Assembly: GCA_025526935.1 (NCBI GenBank)
Contig: JAHLKD010000143.1
Span: 1-64,000, forward strand
Direction: 5' to 3'
Length of the DNA: 64,000 nucleotides
DNA from: Cladochytrium replicatum
Lineage: Eukaryota > Chytridiomycota > Chytridiomycetes > Cladochytriales > Cladochytriaceae
Of this stretch, positions 10,347 to 43,000 are shown piece by piece (positions within the stretch are counted from its first letter, which is position 1; every line of letters starts with the position of its first letter). A model generated the notes under the pieces. The model saw nothing but the letters and a program-made list of their open reading frames with translations. It ran no database searches and was not told the origin of the DNA. The translations under genes and the position numbers were made by a program.

Positions 10347-13328
10347 TCAAAAAAGAATGAAAACACCTGCACGCTCCTTGTACTCTGCAACAGTGTCAGC
10401 TGAATGTTCTTCCAGTTCGTCAGCAGGTTCCCAGGAGTCATCAGAGGGCGGATAGCCTAACCAACGCACACGAAACTGGAGTTTCCCGCGATGTTTCCGG
10501 TGAGCCACTATTCGTTCGACTTCATACCATTCACCATCTTCTTCGAGCTCCGGTTCTGGCCTATCTCGACCTTGCTGCCGGGGAGCAGGAGGTTCATGCT
10601 TCTTCAACATTGAAACATGAAACCAAGGATTGACACGAGAAAACTTTTTGGGAAGTGCAAGACGGTAGGTGTCATACTTGCCCACTTCCTCAACGACAAA
10701 TGGACCAACCCAAGATTCCGATAGTTTCCGTTGATAGAACTTCATATGCTTGGTGGTGAGCATAACATCGTCTCCAACTTTGAATATTGGAATTGGCCTC
10801 TTAGTGTCCTGAGCTCTTTTATAATACTCCTGATATTCTGAATAAAGTGTAGTGCACTGGATTTGCAATTCCCTCAATCGATCGACTAGTCTTTCTGCAT
10901 CAGCTGACCGTAGGGCACGATGTTCTGACGAATCGATAAGGGCTCCTGGACCAGTGGGATTATATCCCAAATCCTGTTCAAATCTGGTAACTCCCAAAGG
11001 TTCATTACTGGCTCGAACTTGTGAATTGATTGCGAACTCAACCATCGGAAGGTAACGCTCCCATGCTAACCCACAGTCATCCCCATCGTACACTGCATCA
11101 GCTAATTTGGATAGAACTGCAACTGCCAATTTCACTGTGCTCTCTGCATATGGATTAGCCTGTGGATGATGAGCTGTACTAGAATGCTGCTCGATTCCCA
11201 ATCGCTTCAGGACTGTCTGCGTCATCCCACTAACAAAGGCAGATCCTCTATCTGATGTGAATCTCTCTGGTAAACCATGGAGTGGATAATATCTCTCGTA
11301 TATCAAATTGCCAACTTCTTCGGATGTTGGGTTGATGTTACACTTGTAGAGATGACATCGTGAAGAGAAGCAGCAGACTACAACAAGAATGCCAATCAAT
11401 GGATGACAACCACAGAATGGACCTGCATTGTCTAAAGATGAATGAGCCCAACGACCAGTTATGGCTGCAATATTCCGGAGGAAAGTTGAATGAGGGGGTG
11501 CTCGGGCATGATCTTGACACACCTGGCAACCTTTGACCCATCTCCTGATCTTATGCAGCATCTTTGGAAACCAGAAGACTGTAGCTAATGCAGCAAACAT
11601 TTTTTCAGCAGAAAAATGACCACCTCTTTCATGTCTATCCTGGAGGATAGTTGCTTCGGCAACCTCAGTTGGTACAAATACCTTCCAACCTCCAGCATTA
11701 TGATACAGAATATTATCTATAAATTCCCAAGAGGTGGCAAAGACTCGCTCTTGCTCACTGCACTGCTTCAAATCTCCATTATTTTTTTCTATAATTGCTA
11801 GATAACGCTGTGCTGGCTTTTCCAAATCCTGAACACGCTCACGCCTCCACTGTTCATCACGATCGTCCCACCAGCGTGACACTGCAGAATTATCTTTGAA
11901 CCGTAGCACCATAGCTTGAGCTTGCATTGGTTCTGTCCAAGCTTGACTAATTGCAACTTTTGTCACTGCTTTGAAAAACTTCCCTAACTCATTTGAGCTG
12001 GCATCATCAGCCTGGCCTGAAGAAGAAGTCCCAGCAAAAAGAGGTATGCTGTTTAGAGCATTCTGGTCTAACTTCTCTGATCGTTTGGTGAGAAGCCCAG
12101 TTTGTTGGAGTGCTGAAACAATTTCCAGTCCAATGTTTCCCTGTGGAGGGGAAGATTGGCCAACTGGAAAGCTCTGGAAAACATCCGCTGTAGGTCCATG
12201 ATAATCACTAGTTCCAAGTGTTTTCACTGTTGGTACAGCTGCATCTTTCAAAACAAATTGGGCAGATGGTAAAACTGGGGAAGCTTGTTGTGATGCCGAG
12301 TCCTTTGGTCCAAGCTCTTGCATATCAGAGTGCTGATCGTCAGATGATGATGACACTGCAAGTAATGCTCGAATCTGATCACGATCCCTCTTCAATCTGT
12401 CACATTCAGCAATTGATAAATCCAAAGCTTCACGCAATTTGTGGTTGGCCCTGCATTCTGCTCGCCACAGACCACAAAATCGATCTGCCAACGTTGGAGG
12501 TCCATTTTCGTTTTGTGAAGAGACCTCGCTCCCACGCCCGCTCTGCTGCGCCATTTCGCCGTCGGGTATGTTGGCGCGATCCAAACGAGTGCGAAGACTG
12601 GCTCCGGCAGCCTTCACTGAGGCCAATTCCGCCTCTACCAGTTCGGCCTCGATGCGGAGTTGGCTGGCAAGCTCTTGGGACACCTTCAACTGCTTCTCCA
12701 AGTCATCCAGAGCTGAAACTCGCTTTGCCTCCACCGATCGAGCCGTCTCTAGCTCCGCTGCAGCACTGGCTGCCTTGCGCCGTGCTTCCGCTGCATTCTC
12801 CTGTGCAACGCGAAGCTCTCGACAAGCACTAGCCAGTTCCTGCTGCAGGTCTGCCAAGTTTTGGCCAATTCCATCATGGTTCGATAAATCGGCATCCCAA
12901 AAATCGGTCTGGGTCTGGGAATCAGTCCAACGCTTCTCTCCATCGTCCTCGACATCAGGAACATCAATGGGATCAAGCTGATCCGTCGCCAGAACCAAGT
13001 TATCCGCAAGCGCCGAGCACTGCATCACAAGTGCATCGTTCTCGATTTCAAGCTGCTCGAGCGATACGGCCGATTCAGCGCGTCCCTCTTCACGCGCACG
13101 GTTTAGCAATTCCACAAGTGCATTCGGGACAGCGATCTGGCCAGATCCAATACTGGCCAAAAATCCAGCAACGTCCTCCAATGAATACATCAACAAAAAC
13201 GCATTCCTCCACGCATTGCGAGGTTCCCCCAAGCGCTCCGCAAGATGCCGCAATCGTTCCCGAGGTTCCAAAGGCTGTCCAACATGAGCCCTCGCCAAGC
13301 GATCCTGAACCCTCGAAGTTGTCGACAT
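10347..13328 (-). CDS. Gag-integrase fusion of LTR element B (chromodomain)
   Basis: One open frame of 993 codons starts at 'MSTTSRVQD'; an upstream ATG at 13475 would add 49 residues from the leader. The N-terminal half is coiled-coil-rich and gag-like. A capsid-like piece ('VSRWWDDRDEQW') is followed directly by integrase. The integrase has an HHCC finger ('DRHERGGHF', 'CQVCQDH'), the DDE core with D in 'LDNAGPF', D in 'SDRGSAFVS' and E in 'NPYAEST', then a C-terminal barrel and a chromodomain ('FRVRWLGYPPSDDSWEP'). Protease, reverse transcriptase and RNase H are absent, although gypsy pol normally places them between gag and integrase. The frame is nevertheless intact. The element is flanked by matching LTRs, so it is young. 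It would need reverse transcriptase in trans. Confidence 0.85.
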   Translation of the reverse strand: MSTTSRVQDRLARAHVGQPLEPRERLRHLAERLGEPRNAWRNAFLLMYSLEDVAGFLASIGSGQIAVPNALVELLNRAREEGRAESAVSLEQLEIENDALVMQCSALADNLVLATDQLDPIDVPDVEDDGEKRWTDSQTQTDFWDADLSNHDGIGQNLADLQQELASACRELRVAQENAAEARRKAASAAAELETARSVEAKRVSALDDLEKQLKVSQELASQLRIEAELVEAELASVKAAGASLRTRLDRANIPDGEMAQQSGRGSEVSSQNENGPPTLADRFCGLWRAECRANHKLREALDLSIAECDRLKRDRDQIRALLAVSSSSDDQHSDMQELGPKDSASQQASPVLPSAQFVLKDAAVPTVKTLGTSDYHGPTADVFQSFPVGQSSPPQGNIGLEIVSALQQTGLLTKRSEKLDQNALNSIPLFAGTSSSGQADDASSNELGKFFKAVTKVAISQAWTEPMQAQAMVLRFKDNSAVSRWWDDRDEQWRRERVQDLEKPAQRYLAIIEKNNGDLKQCSEQERVFATSWEFIDNILYHNAGGWKVFVPTEVAEATILQDRHERGGHFSAEKMFAALATVFWFPKMLHKIRRWVKGCQVCQDHARAPPHSTFLRNIAAITGRWAHSSLDNAGPFCGCHPLIGILVVVCCFSSRCHLYKCNINPTSEEVGNLIYERYYPLHGLPERFTSDRGSAFVSGMTQTVLKRLGIEQHSSTAHHPQANPYAESTVKLAVAVLSKLADAVYDGDDCGLAWERYLPMVEFAINSQVRASNEPLGVTRFEQDLGYNPTGPGALIDSSEHRALRSADAERLVDRLRELQIQCTTLYSEYQEYYKRAQDTKRPIPIFKVGDDVMLTTKHMKFYQRKLSESWVGPFVVEEVGKYDTYRLALPKKFSRVNPWFHVSMLKKHEPPAPRQQGRDRPEPELEEDGEWYEVERIVAHRKHRGKLQFRVRWLGYPPSDDSWEPADELEEHSADTVAEYKERAGVFILF

Positions 13329-13456
13329 ATTGTGCTCAGAAAAATGCGTAAAATAATCGAAACTGATCGCCCGTAATTCTGAGTAATCAGGGAAGTGTTT
13401 GTGTAGCCGGTAATACGTTCCTGAGTAAACGCACAAAAAGGTCCAAAAATGGTGGG

Positions 13457-13474
13457 TCCTGGATGAAACCACCA
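13457..13474 (-). promoter_or_regulatory. Primer-binding site of element B
   Basis: On the minus strand TGGTGGTTTCATCCAGGA follows the 5' LTR after two bases, exactly as in element A. This identity links the two elements as relatives using the same primer. Confidence 0.75.
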
Positions 13475-13476
13475 CC

Positions 13477-13945
13477 TGTTAAAAACCAAGGGCTTCTCCT
13501 GGCAGCGGTAGGGCGTGTTTAGCTGTACTTTAGCTAGCACAACAGCTCCAGGTTCCGTCTCTTGGCCCAGTTGAATATGGGGTGATGATAAAGCAAATTC
13601 CCTTGTTGCACACAAGCACTCTGTGGCTAATACAAATCAAGGCTGGGATTGCTAACCAGGAAGACTGTGGTGTGTGAGTGTTTGGTTTGTTCCACTGTCT
13701 CCTTTATTTATACCTGTGGTGTGTGAGTGTTTGGTTTGTTCCACTGTCTCAAGGAACCAGCCACCCTCACACCGCAATAAATATTCCCACACAGAAGAAT
13801 ATTCAACAATTACAATAAAGAAAATAAACAGCATGACTGCCCAAAACATAAATCGAGCAATAGCATAAAAACTTCTCAAGCCCAAGAGAAAAGCCTATTG
13901 CACAAAACAATGGGTAAGCCCTCCAAGGGTACACAGAATTTAACA
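13477..13945 (-). mobile_element. LTR-B, 5' copy
   Basis: This 469-bp LTR, read on the minus strand, begins TGTTAAATTC and ends GGTTTTTAACA. The right side is flanked by the CTGTT target duplication. Confidence 0.88.
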
Positions 13946-25596: not shown

Positions 25597-28500
25597 TCAC
25601 TTGTTCTTGAGAGTCTTCTGCTTCTCCGCATGCTCGACGATCTTTTGCTCGACATGCAATCCCTGTCAAAACACAAATTCAAAATTCAGTCTCGACCCCC
25701 AAATTCTCAACAAATATTCTCTTCTCTATACTTTTCGTTTTCGAACGACATCCATGTACTTCTTTGCAACGTTATCCCTGTCAGCCTTCTCACCCAGATC
25801 TTCGAGCTCCTCTTCGGTCGCCGGCACCCAGAACGGATCCTGATCAAGCACTTCATATCTGAAGTTCCAGAAATTTAGCCAATGAATCATCTTTGGCGTA
25901 AACCAACGTCAGATTACCCATGGAAAATGAGTTGTGGGCTAGCAGCACCAGAAGTTCGTTTCCGTAGTTCTGTTCGTAGAGTCAGGAAGCGACTTTTGGG
26001 GGGCATGCTTTAATCTCCAACCTTCAGCGAATCCGAAACTCTCAACCACGGGCAGTAGCGCCTTGATGAAGAAGAACGGTGTCCCATCCTTCAACTCCTC
26101 CGACAGTATCCTTCCTTTCCGTTTCGCCAGAACCGCATAAACCTTTCCAAGCACCTCCGCTAATAAAACCAAAAATTGGACTTTGTTCCGCAGCAATACA
26201 CACAACATTTGTTACATACCGGGTGCCTGAAGATCGCACGAGTACATTGCAAGCATAAGCCTCGGGCTCCACGTCAAGAAAGCCGCCTTGCACACCTCCC
26301 TCATCGTCGAGATGATGTTCCCCGGCAACAAGCCCAGCAGTTTCCGACCCAAGGCGTCGCTCTCTTCAAATGCGTACTCGAACGTGACGCTCTCGACAAA
26401 GAAGCACAGTCCCTGCATCGGCTCGGCGCAAAGCGGACCCGCCTGCGAGGCGAGTTGGAAACCTGTCACGATCGCGGATTCGTAGTCTTTGATGTTGAAC
26501 TCGCGCTTGGACTCATTGACGGACACGGAATCGGGTTGGTCGCCCAACTCTTCGTCCGTGGCTGATTCGGCACCCTTTTGTGTTGAGGTTTGCTTCTTTG
26601 CTTGTGTCGAATGCCATCTGCAAATAGAAGCAAGCTTTGTTCAATATATGCAAAAAATGAATAATATAGCATGTTTTCGTCTAAGTACGTACGGACGGTG
26701 GGAGAAGCCGGGTATCCGATTGACGAGCAAGTTCGCCCCAGTGCGCTTTGGCCCAAAAGACCAGATGCTATAAACGAAAGTTATCGTGCGCCAAGTTAAC
26801 ATCCAAAGATCAAGAACAAAACATTGCGACTAATAACTACTCACCTATCGACAATCGAAGGAATCACCTCGCGATCCGTCCCCTCTTCCGACTCGAGTAT
26901 CGCTCTGATCCTTCCCGTAAGCTCTTCAGCGCTCTTCGCTCTGTTCTCCCGCCCTTCAACGTCGCTCGATACACCGACCTCATCCGTGATCGCTTTGATC
27001 TCCGGCGCGTGCTCGACAAGGAATGCAGTGAGAACCTCGGGGAGCTTGGCTGCCCGCACGCGGAGTGTGCAGAGCTTGTGTGGTGTGCTGAGGAGCGCTG
27101 TTCCAGTCGGCAACGTGGGATCTTTGTCCTTTTCAGGATCACTTTGCGCTGATTGGGTGGGTAGAATCTTGTAAGTACTAAAAAGAATGGTTCAAGTGAT
27201 GGGTGCTGTGCGCTTTACATTCAGGTTTTATCTGGAGCGATGGCGCAGACGAAATCGTCTCGCGGTACGGAACGAGGGGCGCTGAGGGGTGGATATCAAT
27301 CTTTGCAAAGCGCTCGCGGAGATCACGGAGACATCGTTCCAGGTGCAGCTCGCCCGCGGTCATGATGACGTGCTCGCCGGTCTCTTGGCGCATGACTTCC
27401 ACGCTCGGGTCAGCCTGGTTTAGCAATCTCAGTCCTTCGATCAGCTGAGGCATTTGCGCTTAATGCAACCAATTTCAGTCTCAAAAAAAAGTGCCAAAAA
27501 AACCCTTTCTGCCAGAACATACACAAATCCGCTGGCTGCAGCGCGACGCGCACGATGGGCGCCGTCGCCATGACGATCCCGCCGAAGCTCGGGCACACGG
27601 TCGTGGTGCTCAGCGTCCCAGTTTTCAGAATGGTGGTTTCCAAACCCGCGATCCCGAAAATGTTTCCAGCTGGCACCTCTTCGATCTCATGCAACTCACG
27701 GCCCATCATCAAGTACAACGAGTCCACGAGGATCTCGCTTCGGTGCGCATCCGGGTTCTCGGGGTCGTATTTCGGCCCGAGCACATGGATCTTTTGACCT
27801 TTTTTCAACACCCCCGAATAGATTCTCGCGAACCCAATCATCCTCTCCACGTTCTCGTCAACAACCGCTCTCGTTTCCGTCGAAGCGTCGTTGGCCGGCG
27901 CCACCACTGGGGTTGGGGTTGGTGTGGGTTGTTCCCCATCCGCGGCTTGTTGCATCTGCTGCATCCTGAGAACTTCCTTGCGCCGCTCGCGGAGCTCCTC
28001 GGCAGTCAGCTGCGTGCGCTTTTGCGTCGAGACTGTTGTAAGATATTTGACCGGCACGCTGAACATTTTGCTGACGTAGGCGACGGTCGGTGCGTCGGAA
28101 GTTGTGCTGCAGGTGTAGAGGGCGCTCTCTAGGGCCGCGCGTTCGGGATTGGCAGAGGAGGACGGTGTGGACGTCGAGGTGTCGGGATGGACGATTTTGG
28201 GGAGACGTTGGGATTGGGCGGTGAGCGGCGAGGGGAGTTCTTCGACTACACCTAGTGTTTGGATGAAGATGCAAGAGAGAATTGGTTAAGGGGAGCAGAT
28301 GCATACGTTTTCACGATTCGGATGAGCTTTTAAGTTGGATATGAAGCACTGATGAGGATAGTGGTAGCCATTGGCTCAGAAGTTGCTGTGCGAGCAATCG
28401 ACCATCCTTGGATTTCATGTCACGAGGCAGTACTTTCAGGTTCAACACCTTAATAATTTTCTCGAGCTTCTCCCTGTCGCTGAACGAAAGATAGAGTCAG

Positions 28501-29789
28501 ATAATAAAACATCTGTCACCGTTACGTACGGAGTTGGGGCCAGAGCGGCCTCGTACACCGCCCAGATGTTGTCAAGCACGAACTGGACGAAAACCGGTTT
28601 GAGCGCTCGACCCTTCAATGCTTTGTGCCCGATCACACGCTTTGCTTTTGTGTCCAGATAGTAGTCCCCCCACAGCACTTTGCGAAGCATGGACTCTTTC
28701 ATCCCCAGCTTAGTGCTGTAAAGAGCAGCAAATTGGCTGGTTCTAAAGAAAGGACAGAACGTAAAGCTCGATCCAACGAAGGATGAGTTTGATTATAGTT
28801 CCTACCGGAAAGCCCAACCGTCATATGCGCTAGCAAAGATGACATTTCCCAGTTCTGGAGAAAAATAGATGTGCGAATCATCCTCAATTTCCAAGTGCCA
28901 ATCTGCCTGAGACTCATCCGCCGCGTCTTGGAGCTGCACAGACATCAGTGACCTGAACTGTCACACAATGCATTTAAATTTCCTACCTCTCGTTTCTTGG
29001 TGTCCATTTCGATCACGTTCTCCGAGAAGAATGTTCCCATGATAGCATTCACTTGTTCCAAAATCTTGTTGAGGTGAACATAGGCTTCCATGGGAGTGAG
29101 CTTCAGCTCGGTAACCAATCGATCGATCTTGTTCAGGACCAGGATTGGCTTCACAGTGTCGAGCCAAGCTTGGCGGAGAACCGTGTGAGTCTGAGACGCC
29201 ACGATTTTAGCGAAAGGTTCATCTATGGTAGTAGTTGATCGCAATCACCTGAGTGCAAACCCCTTCCACAGCATCCACAAGCACCAGCGCACCATCACAC
29301 AAACGCGAGGCCGTGGAAACCTCTCCGCTAAAGTCGACGTGACCTGGCGAATCGATCAAGTTGATCAAGTATTCATCGCTGGTCGTGGAAACAGCCGCTG
29401 TAACGAAATGGGGATGGTCAGTCCGATGCAGTTGACTAACTCATGGGCACGCACCGTTCTGGTCCAAAGTGTTTCGAATGACTTTAAAGTACAAAGAGAT
29501 ACCGGACGACTTCATGGTGATTCCGCGCTCCTGCTCGTCGTCGCGCGAGTCCAAGTAGCGGACTTTTCCGGACAGCTTTGCGCTGATAATGCCATTTGAC
29601 GAGAGCAGACCGTCGCTGAGAGTAGTTTTTCCTAGTAAATGACGATGCATGGACAGTGTTAGGGTTGTGAACCTGATCGCCATACGAACTACTACAACCG
29701 TGATCGACATGAGCCAGGATGCAGATGTTTCTGATGTTCTGGGTGGTTTTCTGCAGCGCGATCAGCTGCTGTGCGGACACGACGGGCAT
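25597..29789 (-). CDS. EFL1: EFL1/Ria1 GTPase for 60S ribosome maturation
   Basis: EF-2-like GTPase that, with Sdo1/SBDS, evicts Tif6 from cytoplasmic pre-60S particles. Sixteen exons give 1075 residues. The exon starts/ends are 29789-29699, 29631-29455, 29397-29249, 29190-28987, 28933-28806, 28742-28530, 28479-28343, 28254-27523, 27458-27251, 27177-26845, 26767-26693, 26617-26220, 26159-26022, 25969-25918, 25858-25732 and 25662-25597. GTPase motifs are 'AHVDHGKTTL' (split by intron 1), '[11 protein letters not shown]' and 'NKIDR'. Family landmarks include '[14 protein letters not shown]', '[20 protein letters not shown]' and the domain-V end '[20 protein letters not shown]'. An insert before domain II is rich in Q, P and T ('[10 protein letters not shown]'). 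Intron 7 lacks GT-AG and is best read as AT-AC. The junction of exons 9 and 10 uses a weak GTCTGC donor and is the least certain. Confidence 0.93.
28255..28342 (-). other. Probable U12-type AT-AC intron of EFL1
   Basis: The intron begins ATATCC directly after 'GTGCTTC', contains CCCCTTAACC (the U12 branch consensus core is CCTTAAC) and ends CCAAACAC. Splicing joins phase 1 cleanly and gives '[16 protein letters not shown]', the expected family sequence. No GT donor in the right phase lies between the conserved residues and the in-frame stop. The branch-to-acceptor distance is about 31 nt, longer than typical. Confidence 0.65.
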
Positions 29790-38640: not shown

Positions 38641-39891
38641 CTATTCATCGAAATCAGGGTCACTCCGAATCCATTTATGCAACCATTGCCATTTTCCCCT
38701 CAAATACACACCACTGTCAAACCACCATTCCCGAATCTCACGACTGACAAACAGGACCGAAAAGCGTGTGGCCTTCAACTTGAGCCCACCATGTTTCCAC
38801 CACTCCAATACCTCAACAAGTCCGTTGTGGCTCGCATTGTCCATTGATTTTGAACTCCATTTCAATTGCAATCCACTCTTCTTCCACCATTCTAGAATCT
38901 CGAGTTGTCTGTGGACAGGGAAGAGCAATAACTCGCTAGCGATGTCCAGAGAGAGCGTCGTGTATCGAAGCTCCAATCCACTGCTCTTCCACCAATCTAG
39001 GACCTCGATACGGCCCTTGATATTCCCGTCCATACTGGCTATTTGGTCAATTGCGGCAGTAGTGTACTTCAGATCCAGCCCGCTCTGCTTCCACCACTCC
39101 AAAACATGGGGATGACCCCGGTAGCTGGCGTTGTTCATCGCGGTTTCGTCCCAGAACATGAGAGGCCCGCTACTCTTCCACCATTCCAGAACTTGCACGT
39201 GTCCACCTGCGGATGCACCACGGATCGCGCTCGTCGCTAGCGCCTCAGCTTCATGCCTGGAGCCCAGATATTTTAAACCAGACGATTTCCACCACTGCAG
39301 CACTGCAACATGACCAGAGCCGGATGCGTTTTCAATTGATCTGGTTGAGTAGTTTGGCGGTAGACCGCTTTTACTCCACCATTCCAAAACATCCACGTTT
39401 CCGCGTTCATTCGCCAGATCCAGCGAGTAATGTGACCACTTCAATTCCAGCCCGCTTTTCTTCCACCGTTCAAGCCCGTCGACGGAGCACACCACTGATC
39501 GTACTCGAGCTGCCATCCAGAGTTCTTCCACCACTCCACTCCAGAAGATCGATCCGGTTATTCTCGGAGCAATGCTTCGTCGCACCGGATGATAGTCTGC
39601 ACAGCTCTTCGGGAGTCGGTTTTGCAATGTCGGCCACTCTTTGTAGAGGTCGAGGAGCTCGAGATCGTTTGCTTTTGAAGGAGGGATGAGGCAATCTTTG
39701 AAGGGTACGAGGCCAAGCTGGACGTGGCGAAAACGGAATGAAGTAGCGATGCGAAAGGCATGCTTTGGGTTGTTGAGGTTGCGGGCAAGGATGGTGAGGA
39801 TTCGTTCGGTTATTTCGGTGGAGATTCGAGGTAGAACTGCTATAGCTATGGGATTGTGCTGGTGAGGTTTGTTGGTGCAGCTCAACCCCAT
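38641..39891 (-). CDS. Ankyrin-like WW-repeat protein (LEWWK-SGL units)
   Basis: A single exon gives 416 residues from the ATG at 39891. An upstream in-frame ATG at 40062 would overlap the divergent nucleoporin start and is unlikely. The N-terminus has an F-box-like stretch ('LPRISTEITERILTILARNL'). About nine tandem units of 29-34 residues follow, each built as 'V-LEWWK-SGL-L-Y---S---AS--G'. Examples are 'VLEWWKQSGLDLKYTTAAID' and 'VLEWWKHGGLKLKATRF'. Spacing and helix-turn-helix character resemble ankyrin repeats in which the conserved double tryptophan replaces the usual core. The last unit degenerates to 'REWWFDSGVYLRGKW'. Function is unknown; a substrate-binding F-box role is a guess. 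Confidence 0.8.
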   Translation of the reverse strand: MGLSCTNKPHQHNPIAIAVLPRISTEITERILTILARNLNNPKHAFRIATSFRFRHVQLGLVPFKDCLIPPSKANDLELLDLYKEWPTLQNRLPKSCADYHPVRRSIAPRITGSIFWSGVVEELWMAARVRSVVCSVDGLERWKKSGLELKWSHYSLDLANERGNVDVLEWWSKSGLPPNYSTRSIENASGSGHVAVLQWWKSSGLKYLGSRHEAEALATSAIRGASAGGHVQVLEWWKSSGPLMFWDETAMNNASYRGHPHVLEWWKQSGLDLKYTTAAIDQIASMDGNIKGRIEVLDWWKSSGLELRYTTLSLDIASELLLFPVHRQLEILEWWKKSGLQLKWSSKSMDNASHNGLVEVLEWWKHGGLKLKATRFSVLFVSREIREWWFDSGVYLRGKWQWLHKWIRSDPDFDE

Positions 39892-40043
39892 CAATGAATG
39901 CAAATGCCCGTCAACGGAAAGCGTGGAGTGAAACTTCGAAGACCTCTCGAAATAAAAAATAGCGCAGCTGTGGCTTAAATCCAACCTTCGACGGCGATGG
40001 CACCCATCCACGAGCGATCGGGAATGGCGGAGAACAAGGAGGC
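39892..40043. promoter_or_regulatory. 152-bp divergent promoter (WW-repeat gene / nucleoporin)
   Basis: The two chosen start codons are 152 bp apart on opposite strands. No core element is obvious. Confidence 0.45.
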
Positions 40044-43000
40044 ATGCGGAGAATGAAAGCATCGATTCTTACTAACAATATCTCACAGGGCCTGTTCGAG
40101 CTGTGCGAGGTGCGCGAAAATGCAAAAGTCCGCGCCTTCGATACTGCAGGAGCAGCACAGCTAGAGCTACCGCCAAAGGTCAACCTGCTCTCCGTATCCC
40201 AATCTTATGGATTCGCCGTGTATGCCTCAGACAAAGGTGTATTCATTCTGCAATCAAAGTTTGTTTTCTTAACGTCAATCTGTTCACAGGGTTGCACTAT
40301 GTCGAGACCAAGAGCATTGGTGGGGCTGCACATGCCGCGGATAAAGGAAAGATTGCGAATTTGGATGGCGTGGCGGTTACGCCGTTGCCAAAGGGTTCCG
40401 GAGGTGTATACCACGTTCGATTATCGGGAAACGACTTGATTGTGTGTGTTGGGACGAAAGCCGGGCAGTTGCTAAAGTACCGGACATCTGACCTGAAGGT
40501 GCGTACTCTTTTTCTCTCTCGAAATTGTGTTCTGGCTGACAATTTTGGTTTGATAGGCTGGAAATGCTCAACCGATATTGATTGTCAGCTGCGCGTCGGG
40601 CAACGTGTCAATCTCAGATGTAGCACCCAATCCAAGCGCTGATTCAGATACTACAGCTATTCTGGTGTCTGACGGTTTCGTGCTGATCCACTCTGACCAA
40701 TCAGGTTTGAAACCACTTCCAGTATCAAACGTCACTTCAAGTACGTCGAGCCCTTAACCTGTTTTCAGTAAATCTGATCACTGTCAATTTAGTCTGCTGG
40801 AGCACAAAGGGAAAGCAGATCGCTTGCGGAACTCGCGGAGGGACAATTTTGCAGTTTCAACCAGATGGCCAGCAGAAAAACACGCTTCCCTCCCCTTCAA
40901 ACATTTCGGATCCGGTGAACGTCGCCGGACTTCTCTGGATTGAGACCGCAGTCTTTTTCGTGGTTTACGCGACTGTCGACGACGAAGGATATGTTATGGA
41001 TCTGGTTTACTATGTGTTGTCACAGACAAAAGTGGGCGATGTGGTATGTTATCATAAACGTTCTAAATTCATGTGGACAATCAAGATACTAAGTATGTTG
41101 ATTTATTAGAAAAATATCGTGCACAAAGAAATTATCGACGCACCAATGGAAAACGCTCCGCACGTCTACCTCCAGCTCTTACGTAACTGGCGCCAATCCT
41201 ACACTGTTTTTTTAGCTTACAGCAACAGCGAATCCATCAACGTGTTTGGTTGCGAGCCTGGGGGCGGCTGGTCTGTTTACGAAATCGAGGAGGTTAAACG
41301 CGCATCGGTACCCCTCGACCCGGAATCTCAGGAACAGACTCATATCGTTGGACTAGCGATCGATTACACCAATGAGATTTTGTTGCCTCCGCCGCCTGGA
41401 GCGGATCCGCTTCCCCCGCTGCCTTTGTTCATGTTCTTGACGGACGCCGGCGTGTTTTGCGCGTATCATGTTGCGAACCTCGAGGCGGTGAAGTCTGGAA
41501 TCCTGCCGCCTATGGTGAAACCCGCCTCGCTGCCAAGCTCAGCCGGGAGTGGCTCGACTTCGACATTGGGGAAACCTTCCGCACCGGGCACAGGTTTTCC
41601 TACCATGAGTAGCTCGCCAGGAGAAGCTACACCTGTGGGTACGAATGTATTTGGGAAGCCGTCCTTCGGAGGTGCTGCACCGTCCTTTGGTATCCCATCA
41701 TTTGGAACTCCTTCGCTTGGCGGTGGTGCTGCTGGTACATCAGTCAGCGGCACACCAGCATTTGGTGCACCTTCACTTGGTGGAACGCCGTCCTTCGGGG
41801 AGGGCCCAAGCTTCTCTTCGACAACTTTGGGATCACTTACTTCGGGGCAATCCACTACACCGTCATTCGGTAGTTCACTGGGATTCGTTAGCGGGAAACC
41901 GCTTGGATCGCTTGCCGCGACTCCAGGTGGTAGTGCAGCGAAACCGGATGCGCCAACTCCGACGCCTGCTCCCCAGTTCGGATTGAAGCCTGCCACAACT
42001 CTTGGATCGACCACAGGGACGCCGACACAACCTGCGAGCACTAGTGCGTCAAAGTTTGGTTTGGACTCGTCGAAGCTTGGCTCCAGCACAACGTCAGCAG
42101 CGGCACCTACACTTTCACAGACTGCCGCGAATCCATTACAGTCCGCATTGAAGCCTTCAGGAGGTTTTGGCGCTCTCTTTGGATCGGTAACTTAAATCAT
42201 ACTGCTGTTCGTTGAATTTCTCATTTTGTAACCTCAGACTCACGCCAGCTCCGCCGCTAACCCCAGGCCTGAGAGCAGGTCCGGTGGATCTGATACTGGT
42301 GCACCAAAGCCAATTAGCTTCAATACCGGCTCTGCCGCGGCAGCTGCTAAACCGACACAAGCATCTGATGTATTCAAACCGTCCCTCGCGTCACAAGATG
42401 CGCAAGTACGTCCTCCTACAGAGAATGTTCCAGCGAGCGTTGGAGCAGAGATGCTCTTGAGAAAGTTTGACGAGATCTACGCCGATTTCAGTGCCGATAT
42501 GTCCGCTGTGAGTATTCACGTGAACTTAAAATATTGGTGGTTTCAACTGACAACAAAACTGCATCAAGCTGAAGGATTATGTGATTGACCTCCGGAAACT
42601 CATTGGCGCCGCTGAAACAACGACAGCGGCATTAGATCTGAAGGACTTGCGAGGTACAACGCTCGGGGATCTCGGGAGCTTACAACCTTTGTTGAAGAAG
42701 ATGGTTGAATCGGCGGAGACTCGAGTCGCTAGCGCGAGAGCAATGAATGGAAAGAGTGAATCTGTCAAAGAGAGCATTTTGCAAGGTTTGAGTGAGTCTG
42801 CCGTGCTGAATGCGATTTGACTAACTTTGATCGCGGGTTTCGCTTCGCTTAGTGCAAGGGAAAGGTGCGGAGATACAGGCGAGATGGACGGTGTATAAGG
42901 ATCCGGCGATAGTTTCGGCAATTGAGAACAGGGAGCTTGGGCCTGAACAGGAAGAGCTGAAAAGGAAACTCAACTCGAAAAGCCAGGTGAGGATAAAGTG

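Follow-up and report, generated by a model that had tools for sequence, protein, structure and literature searches.

The donor sites of minor introns are unusually conserved, and in U12-type introns they normally read ATATCCTT, with TT at positions 7-8. Both Chytridiomycota, Spizellomyces among them, and Neocallimastigomycetes are already known to have minor introns or U12-type RNAs (available parts of PMC10639083 and PMC2846911), and in Rhizophagus the minor-intron signals stay close to the animal and plant ones (PMC10639083, available part). Since minor introns have already been recorded in chytrids, their presence alone would be unsurprising in a chytrid genome; this refines the claim, made in an initial reading of the DNA letters (hereafter the sequence-only reading), that such an intron is informative on lineage because most fungi have lost the minor spliceosome.

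Like the U12-type AT-AC introns of animals, plants and Rhizophagus, the intron described here in Cladochytrium replicatum has an ATATCC donor start, a CCTTAAC branch and an AC end, and, as in their minor systems, a U11/U12/U4atac/U6atac set occurs in the genome, here in the form of candidates. Unlike in those systems, positions 7-8 of such introns are here often AC and not TT. The organism resembles Spizellomyces punctatus and the Neocallimastigomycetes in being a fungal lineage with minor introns and snRNAs (PMC10639083, available part). Its altered signals recall Physarum polycephalum, whose minor splicing has been transformed (Larue et al. 2021, through the available parts of PMC8329584, PMC10228655 and PMC10639083); Physarum, however, reportedly carries more than 20,000 minor introns, against a pattern excess of a few dozen here. 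The EFL1 intron itself belongs to a known class; the change in donor and U6atac is the new part.

The intron lies in the gene for the ribosome-assembly GTPase EFL1, within the window, that is, the whole stretch of 64,000 nt of DNA that was analysed:

25726 to 29789, minus strand: EFL1 gene (ribosome-assembly GTPase), ATG to stop by eye, introns traced down to 27178
28343 to 28479, minus strand: upstream EFL1 exon
27523 to 28254, minus strand: downstream EFL1 exon
28255 to 28342, minus strand: probable U12-type AT-AC intron of EFL1, 88 nt, phase 1, with an in-frame join at family length
28337 to 28342, minus strand: 5' splice site ATATCC, then AACT
28285 to 28293, minus strand: putative branch-point sequence CCCCTTAAC
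28255 to 28258, minus strand: probable 3' splice site ACAC, 30 nt past the branch-point sequence

The joined stretch matches 5anb_K (elongation factor Tu GTP-binding domain-containing protein 1) at 7e-73, ahead of eEF2, which identifies the gene as EFL1. On the minus strand, the intron (28342-28255) begins ATATCCAACTT, contains CCCCTTAACC and ends AAACAC, and it splits CTT CTA GGT after the C of the second codon (phase 1); the coordinates, the motifs (ATATCC, CCCCTTAACC, ACAC) and the phase proposed in the sequence-only reading are all exact. Its further statement that the phase-1 join gives the family sequence agrees with the alignment, which is gapless against the solved EFL1 5anb_K; the four eEF2 chains printed are also gapless at the junction, as weak local pieces (8.0-9.9 bits). 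The remaining introns, described there as GT-AG, are indeed so for the eight others traced in EFL1 (50-73 nt; tracing down to 27178). A further EFL1 intron, 27178-27250 (minus strand), is in frame only with a poor donor, GTCTGC, and weak GT donors seem to be tolerated. A search for a second copy of the EFL1 locus, as haplotype or paralogue, found none.

The signals of the intron compare with the U12 type as follows: (i) the donor is exact over the six positions of ATATCC against RTATCC(TTT), with AA instead of TT at positions 7-8, (ii) the branch-point sequence CCCCTTAAC is exact over the 7-nt core of the U12 consensus TTCCTTAAC, (iii) donor positions 4-7 (UCCA) can pair with UGGA of the candidate U6atac, and (iv) the branch core CCUUA(A)C can pair with GUAAGG of the candidate U12, one A being bulged. 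Beyond the bare signal pair, the match in EFL1 is also fixed by frame, phase and length. Unlike in typical U12-type introns, the branch distance is long, with 30 nt between the end of the branch sequence and the 3' splice site, outside the optimum of 11-13 nt given for minor introns (PMC3584512, available part). This spacing is an optimum and not a strict definition of the U12 type, and the other checked introns span 8-37 nt from branch to acceptor at the chosen junctions, the CDK-like intron having 37. The 30-nt distance is U2-like, and so is the pyrimidine-rich stretch between branch sequence and ACAC, U12-type introns being marked by the lack of a polypyrimidine tract; TTAAC also fits a major branch consensus, as would be expected of a U2-type AT-AC intron removed by the major spliceosome despite its AT-AC ends. 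Donors of U2-type AT-AC introns look like ATAAGT, however, which the EFL1 donor, matching the U12 type at all six positions, does not resemble; the candidate minor snRNA set and the other AT-AC introns with like signals in the genome also argue against this explanation, which is very improbable.

Alternative excisions were listed over two ranges. In the narrow range, from QWL to the GTA of VVEE, every excision of 30 nt or longer that keeps the frame and leaves no stop was considered in 12 classes, combining the donors GT, GC, AT, GA, TT and CT with the acceptors AG and AC: there is no GT-AG excision, one GC-AG (+4 residues), one AT-AG (-1 residue) and six AT-AC, and 28342-28255 is the sole excision in the 12 classes listed that keeps the family length. 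In the wide range, which took in all of the upstream exon plus 90 nt on the downstream side and covered four donor/acceptor classes, both conserved motifs are retained by none of six GT-AG excisions, four of 49 AT-AC, one of six GC-AG and one of six AT-AG. Because every GT-AG excision of the wide range loses a motif, the junction does not belong to the U2 type in the sense of an in-frame GT...AG with conserved motifs, and the earlier statement that no GT donor is usable here is borne out over both ranges. One canonical-looking GT-AG intron overlaps the AT-AC intron:

28252 to 28306, minus strand: overlapping canonical-looking GT-AG intron, GTATGC...CTAG, 55 nt, leaving an in-frame stop
28311 to 28313, minus strand: in-frame TGA ruling out the GT-AG excision 28306-28252

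It is the only GT-AG excision of the right phase between the motifs, and was rejected since the TGA (28313-28311) remains in frame. The two introns share CTTAAC, and the arrangement is a possible U12/U2 twintron-like switch; the GT-AG intron could compete with AT-AC splicing in EFL1. As GTATGC...CTTAAC...CTAG, 55 nt long, looks well formed for a fungal intron and has the right phase, the TGA might instead come from a lesion or from an error in sequencing or assembly, the real intron then being 28306-28252 with an EFL1 insertion of about 12 residues. This is extremely unlikely: it requires an error plus an insertion where the solved EFL1 aligns without gaps, it leaves the exact ATATCC/CCTTAAC pair unexplained, and the search for a second copy to compare found none. 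Use of the GC-AG (28327-28252) or AT-AG (28342-28252) excision instead, both of which are in frame, stop-free and retain both motifs, is hardly credible, the former adding four residues with a donor GCTCAT and the latter losing one residue from a gapless region, with AT-AG ends reportedly disfavoured among minor introns (PMC3584512, available part).

Almost certainly, EFL1 has a true U12-type AT-AC intron at 28342-28255, and the organism, probably a flagellated, chytrid-like fungus, removes it with a minor spliceosome that has diverged. The probable U12-type intron announced in the sequence-only reading is upheld by the unique join, by the snRNA-gene candidates with their complementarity and by 12 further like introns genome-wide, all of these being evidence at the level of sequence.

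Parts of the minor spliceosome were searched for in the genome (50.5 Mb, 198 contigs), as had been proposed for U11, U12, U4atac and U6atac, and candidates for all four were obtained, one above its Rfam cut-off and three below. The four candidate loci are C48:88258-88380, C34:88465-88606, C24:350283-350540 and C13:358282-358427. The U6atac candidate scores 34.4 bits (cut-off 33; genome E 1.7e-5; runner-up 18 bits) and has a U-run at its 3' end. The U4atac candidate, with 42.8 bits (cut-off 53; E 1.1e-4), belongs to the top-scoring family at its locus, and ordinary U4 is found at a separate locus (77.6 bits). The U11 candidate reaches 36.0 bits with the whole 258-nt stretch aligned (cut-off 39), and carries AUCAAGA, an Sm site and a perfect closing helix. 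No U12 was found in the genome with Rfam at E 0.001, and E 10 gave a weak candidate of 19.7 bits, far below the cut-off of 53 and non-significant by score alone (E 2.42), which has a near-identical branch-pairing core AAUGAGUAAGGA, a TATA box and, by eye, an Sm-like site. A TATAAA motif lies 31-34 nt upstream of U6atac (31 nt), U11, U12 and U4; none was found upstream of the U4atac candidate. The U11 candidate (L012 1360-1617, about 258 nt) has a large insertion in its 5' half. A diverged second U11 copy (L013 1501-1679) has a broken Sm site and lacks a TATA box at the expected place, and was judged a pseudogene and not a second U11 gene.

Furthermore, the candidates are complementary to one another. 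The predicted U4atac/U6atac duplex has -41.6 kcal/mol, lower than any of 2000 double shuffles (-21.8 +/- 3.5), and ordinary U4 with U6atac gives only -15.0 kcal/mol; its stem II comprises 10 pairs (one G-U) and its stem I 5+4 pairs flanking a one-base bulge. CAACAA of U12 and UUGUUG of U6atac, both off the Rfam consensus, pair at six of six positions, a match that 64 of 4096 random hexamers would give, at the place of helix Ia. A U11/U12/U4atac/U6atac set thus appears to be encoded, U4atac, U11 and U12 being candidates below cut-off backed by pairing and conserved cores. A genome lacking all minor-spliceosome components, named at the outset as a finding that would count against the intron, is not what was observed: there are four snRNA candidates, of which U4atac, U6atac and U12 are mutually complementary.

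In brief, splicing could proceed in the following way: U11 and U12 would recognise UAUCC and CCUUAAC; U6atac would then displace U11 at the donor, its GUGGA pairing with 5'-UCC(A/G)C; U12 and U6atac would pair in helix Ia; an A of CCUUAAC would serve as the branch; and splicing would finish at the distal ACAC. We infer that the snRNAs are expressed and that the intron is actually spliced, with this branch A and this exact 3' splice site.

Among minor-spliceosome proteins the search covered 65K and 59K, proposed together with the snRNAs, and CENATAC, and gave candidates for all three, weaker than those for the snRNAs. For a 65K-like pair of RRM exons, RBM40/65K ranks first among PDB matches (2.1e-8), poly(A)-binding protein being close (7.2e-8); upstream of the pair is a second, weak RRM-like piece (E 0.034). 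The two protein families with a curated cut-off score short of it: a PDCD7/59K exon has 22.2 bits (cut-off 27), and CENATAC is represented by two collinear pieces of 21.6 and 14.1 bits (cut-off 25.3). The frame that follows the 59K exon reads TTWDKYAVPAGSSGATSIPPRWVEP, which resembles the C-terminus of PDCD7.

Like introns were searched for genome-wide with the pattern RTATCC, 18-48 nt, YCCTTAAC, which gave 46 matches versus 11 for a reversed-pattern control, so that about a quarter of bare pattern matches are expected by chance; with a longer spacing of 49-79 nt there is little excess (27 versus 20). All 46 matches were read in context, and 20 of them were spliced and sent to Pfam. Nine of the 20 products match a family, in each case across the junction (CLP1_N, Alg9-like mannosyltransferase, LRR, ChAPs, kinesin, exportin-5, Vps51/Exo84, DNA polymerase B exonuclease and YL1), some of these matches being weak or generic (Vps51/Exo84, 24.7 bits for a cut-off of 24.2; kinesin, 31.6 for 29.3; LRR). 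Of the 11 without a Pfam match, the two carried on to a comparison with PDB chains, a MICU-like and a CDK-like product, match there without gaps at the junction. The 26 matches outside the Pfam set include EFL1, a second ChAPs paralogue with an identical junction by inspection, and a false match in SMC3 within the window (54116-54082), which was rejected since it is surrounded by GTATGT...CTAG and reads as a GT-AG intron. The 13 checked introns are therefore EFL1 and 12 further ones (nine by Pfam, two by PDB and the ChAPs paralogue); we inferred the 3' splice sites of the like introns by picking from in-frame AC/AG options. The two ChAPs paralogues (L023 and L046) have a common AT-AC junction with conserved splice signals and diverged intron bodies. 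The AT type is dominant, with an initial A in 38 of the 46 matches (false ones included) and in all 13 checked introns, unlike in human, where about 26% are AT-AC (PMC10639083, available part).

The donors of these minor introns lean to ATATCCAC, compared with the norm ATATCCTT. Over all 46 matches, false ones included, position 7 is A in 21, T in 11, G in 9 and C in 5, and position 8 is C in 16, T in 14, G in 9 and A in 7; in the 13 checked introns the counts are A10 G2 T1 and C8 A2 T2 G1, respectively. Without EFL1 and one of the ChAPs paralogues, 8 of 11 introns have A7 (p 0.002) and 8 of 11 have C8 (p 0.0006), both relative to intron composition. When C and T are taken together at position 8, the count of 10 of the 13 is of weak significance (p 0.09). 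The U6atac candidate reads GUGGA where the Rfam consensus has AAGGA. With GUGGA, 22 of the 26 donor bases at positions 7-8 in the 13 introns can pair (18 Watson-Crick, 4 wobble), against 3 of 26 with the AA of the consensus; in EFL1, A7 pairs and A8 does not. The predicted pairing strand of U11, AAGGG, fits donors with T7 T8, and pairs with three bases only of A7 C8 (ATATCCAC) donors, a contrast between U11 and U6atac that is tentative, as it depends on the predicted U11 5' end.

An RNA of minor splicing and its target signal thus appear to have changed together in the C. replicatum genome, and the U12-type reading, itself supported, is refined in that the donor seems to have drifted from ATATCCTT towards ATATCCAC along with U6atac. 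We lean slightly towards a compensatory rewriting of donor specificity in this lineage, in which U6atac would have gone from AAGGA to GUGGA and the introns from ATATCCTT to ATATCC(A/G)C, U11 keeping AAGG, so that U6atac and not U11 would fix positions 7-8; under the same proposal, the overlapping GT-AG intron of EFL1 would act as a switch between U12 and U2 splicing, with a premature stop in the U2 product. No description of such U6atac/donor covariation was recognised in the literature searched, a body of partly available texts with most subscription papers outside it.

Matches to the flagellar marker IFT46 suggest a flagellated organism: the best has E 8.8e-26 with 5 stops within that stretch, and a third locus is without stops. 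Two IFT46-like copies (C45:121827-122625 and 132613-133411) score almost equally and lie inverted, about 10 kb from each other, and the stops in their matched stretches may reflect introns or decay; the third locus is on C23. In the window, a long ORF (10347-13478, minus strand), integrase- and chromodomain-like by eye, looks like part of a Ty3/gypsy-type retroelement, and 38641-40068 (minus strand) encodes a protein with many VLEWWKSSGL-type repeats, of a kind known from chytrid genomes.

By the E-values obtained here, an Rfam survey at E 0.01 (as in PMC10639083, available part) would catch U6atac and U4atac in this genome and miss U12, and an annotator restricted to GT-AG would mis-splice EFL1, CLP1, exportin-5 and others. 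With donor and U6atac changed together and U11 apparently unchanged, the lineage would be a natural mutant for two questions: which snRNA sets donor specificity, and in what way a splicing code may drift and still be retained.
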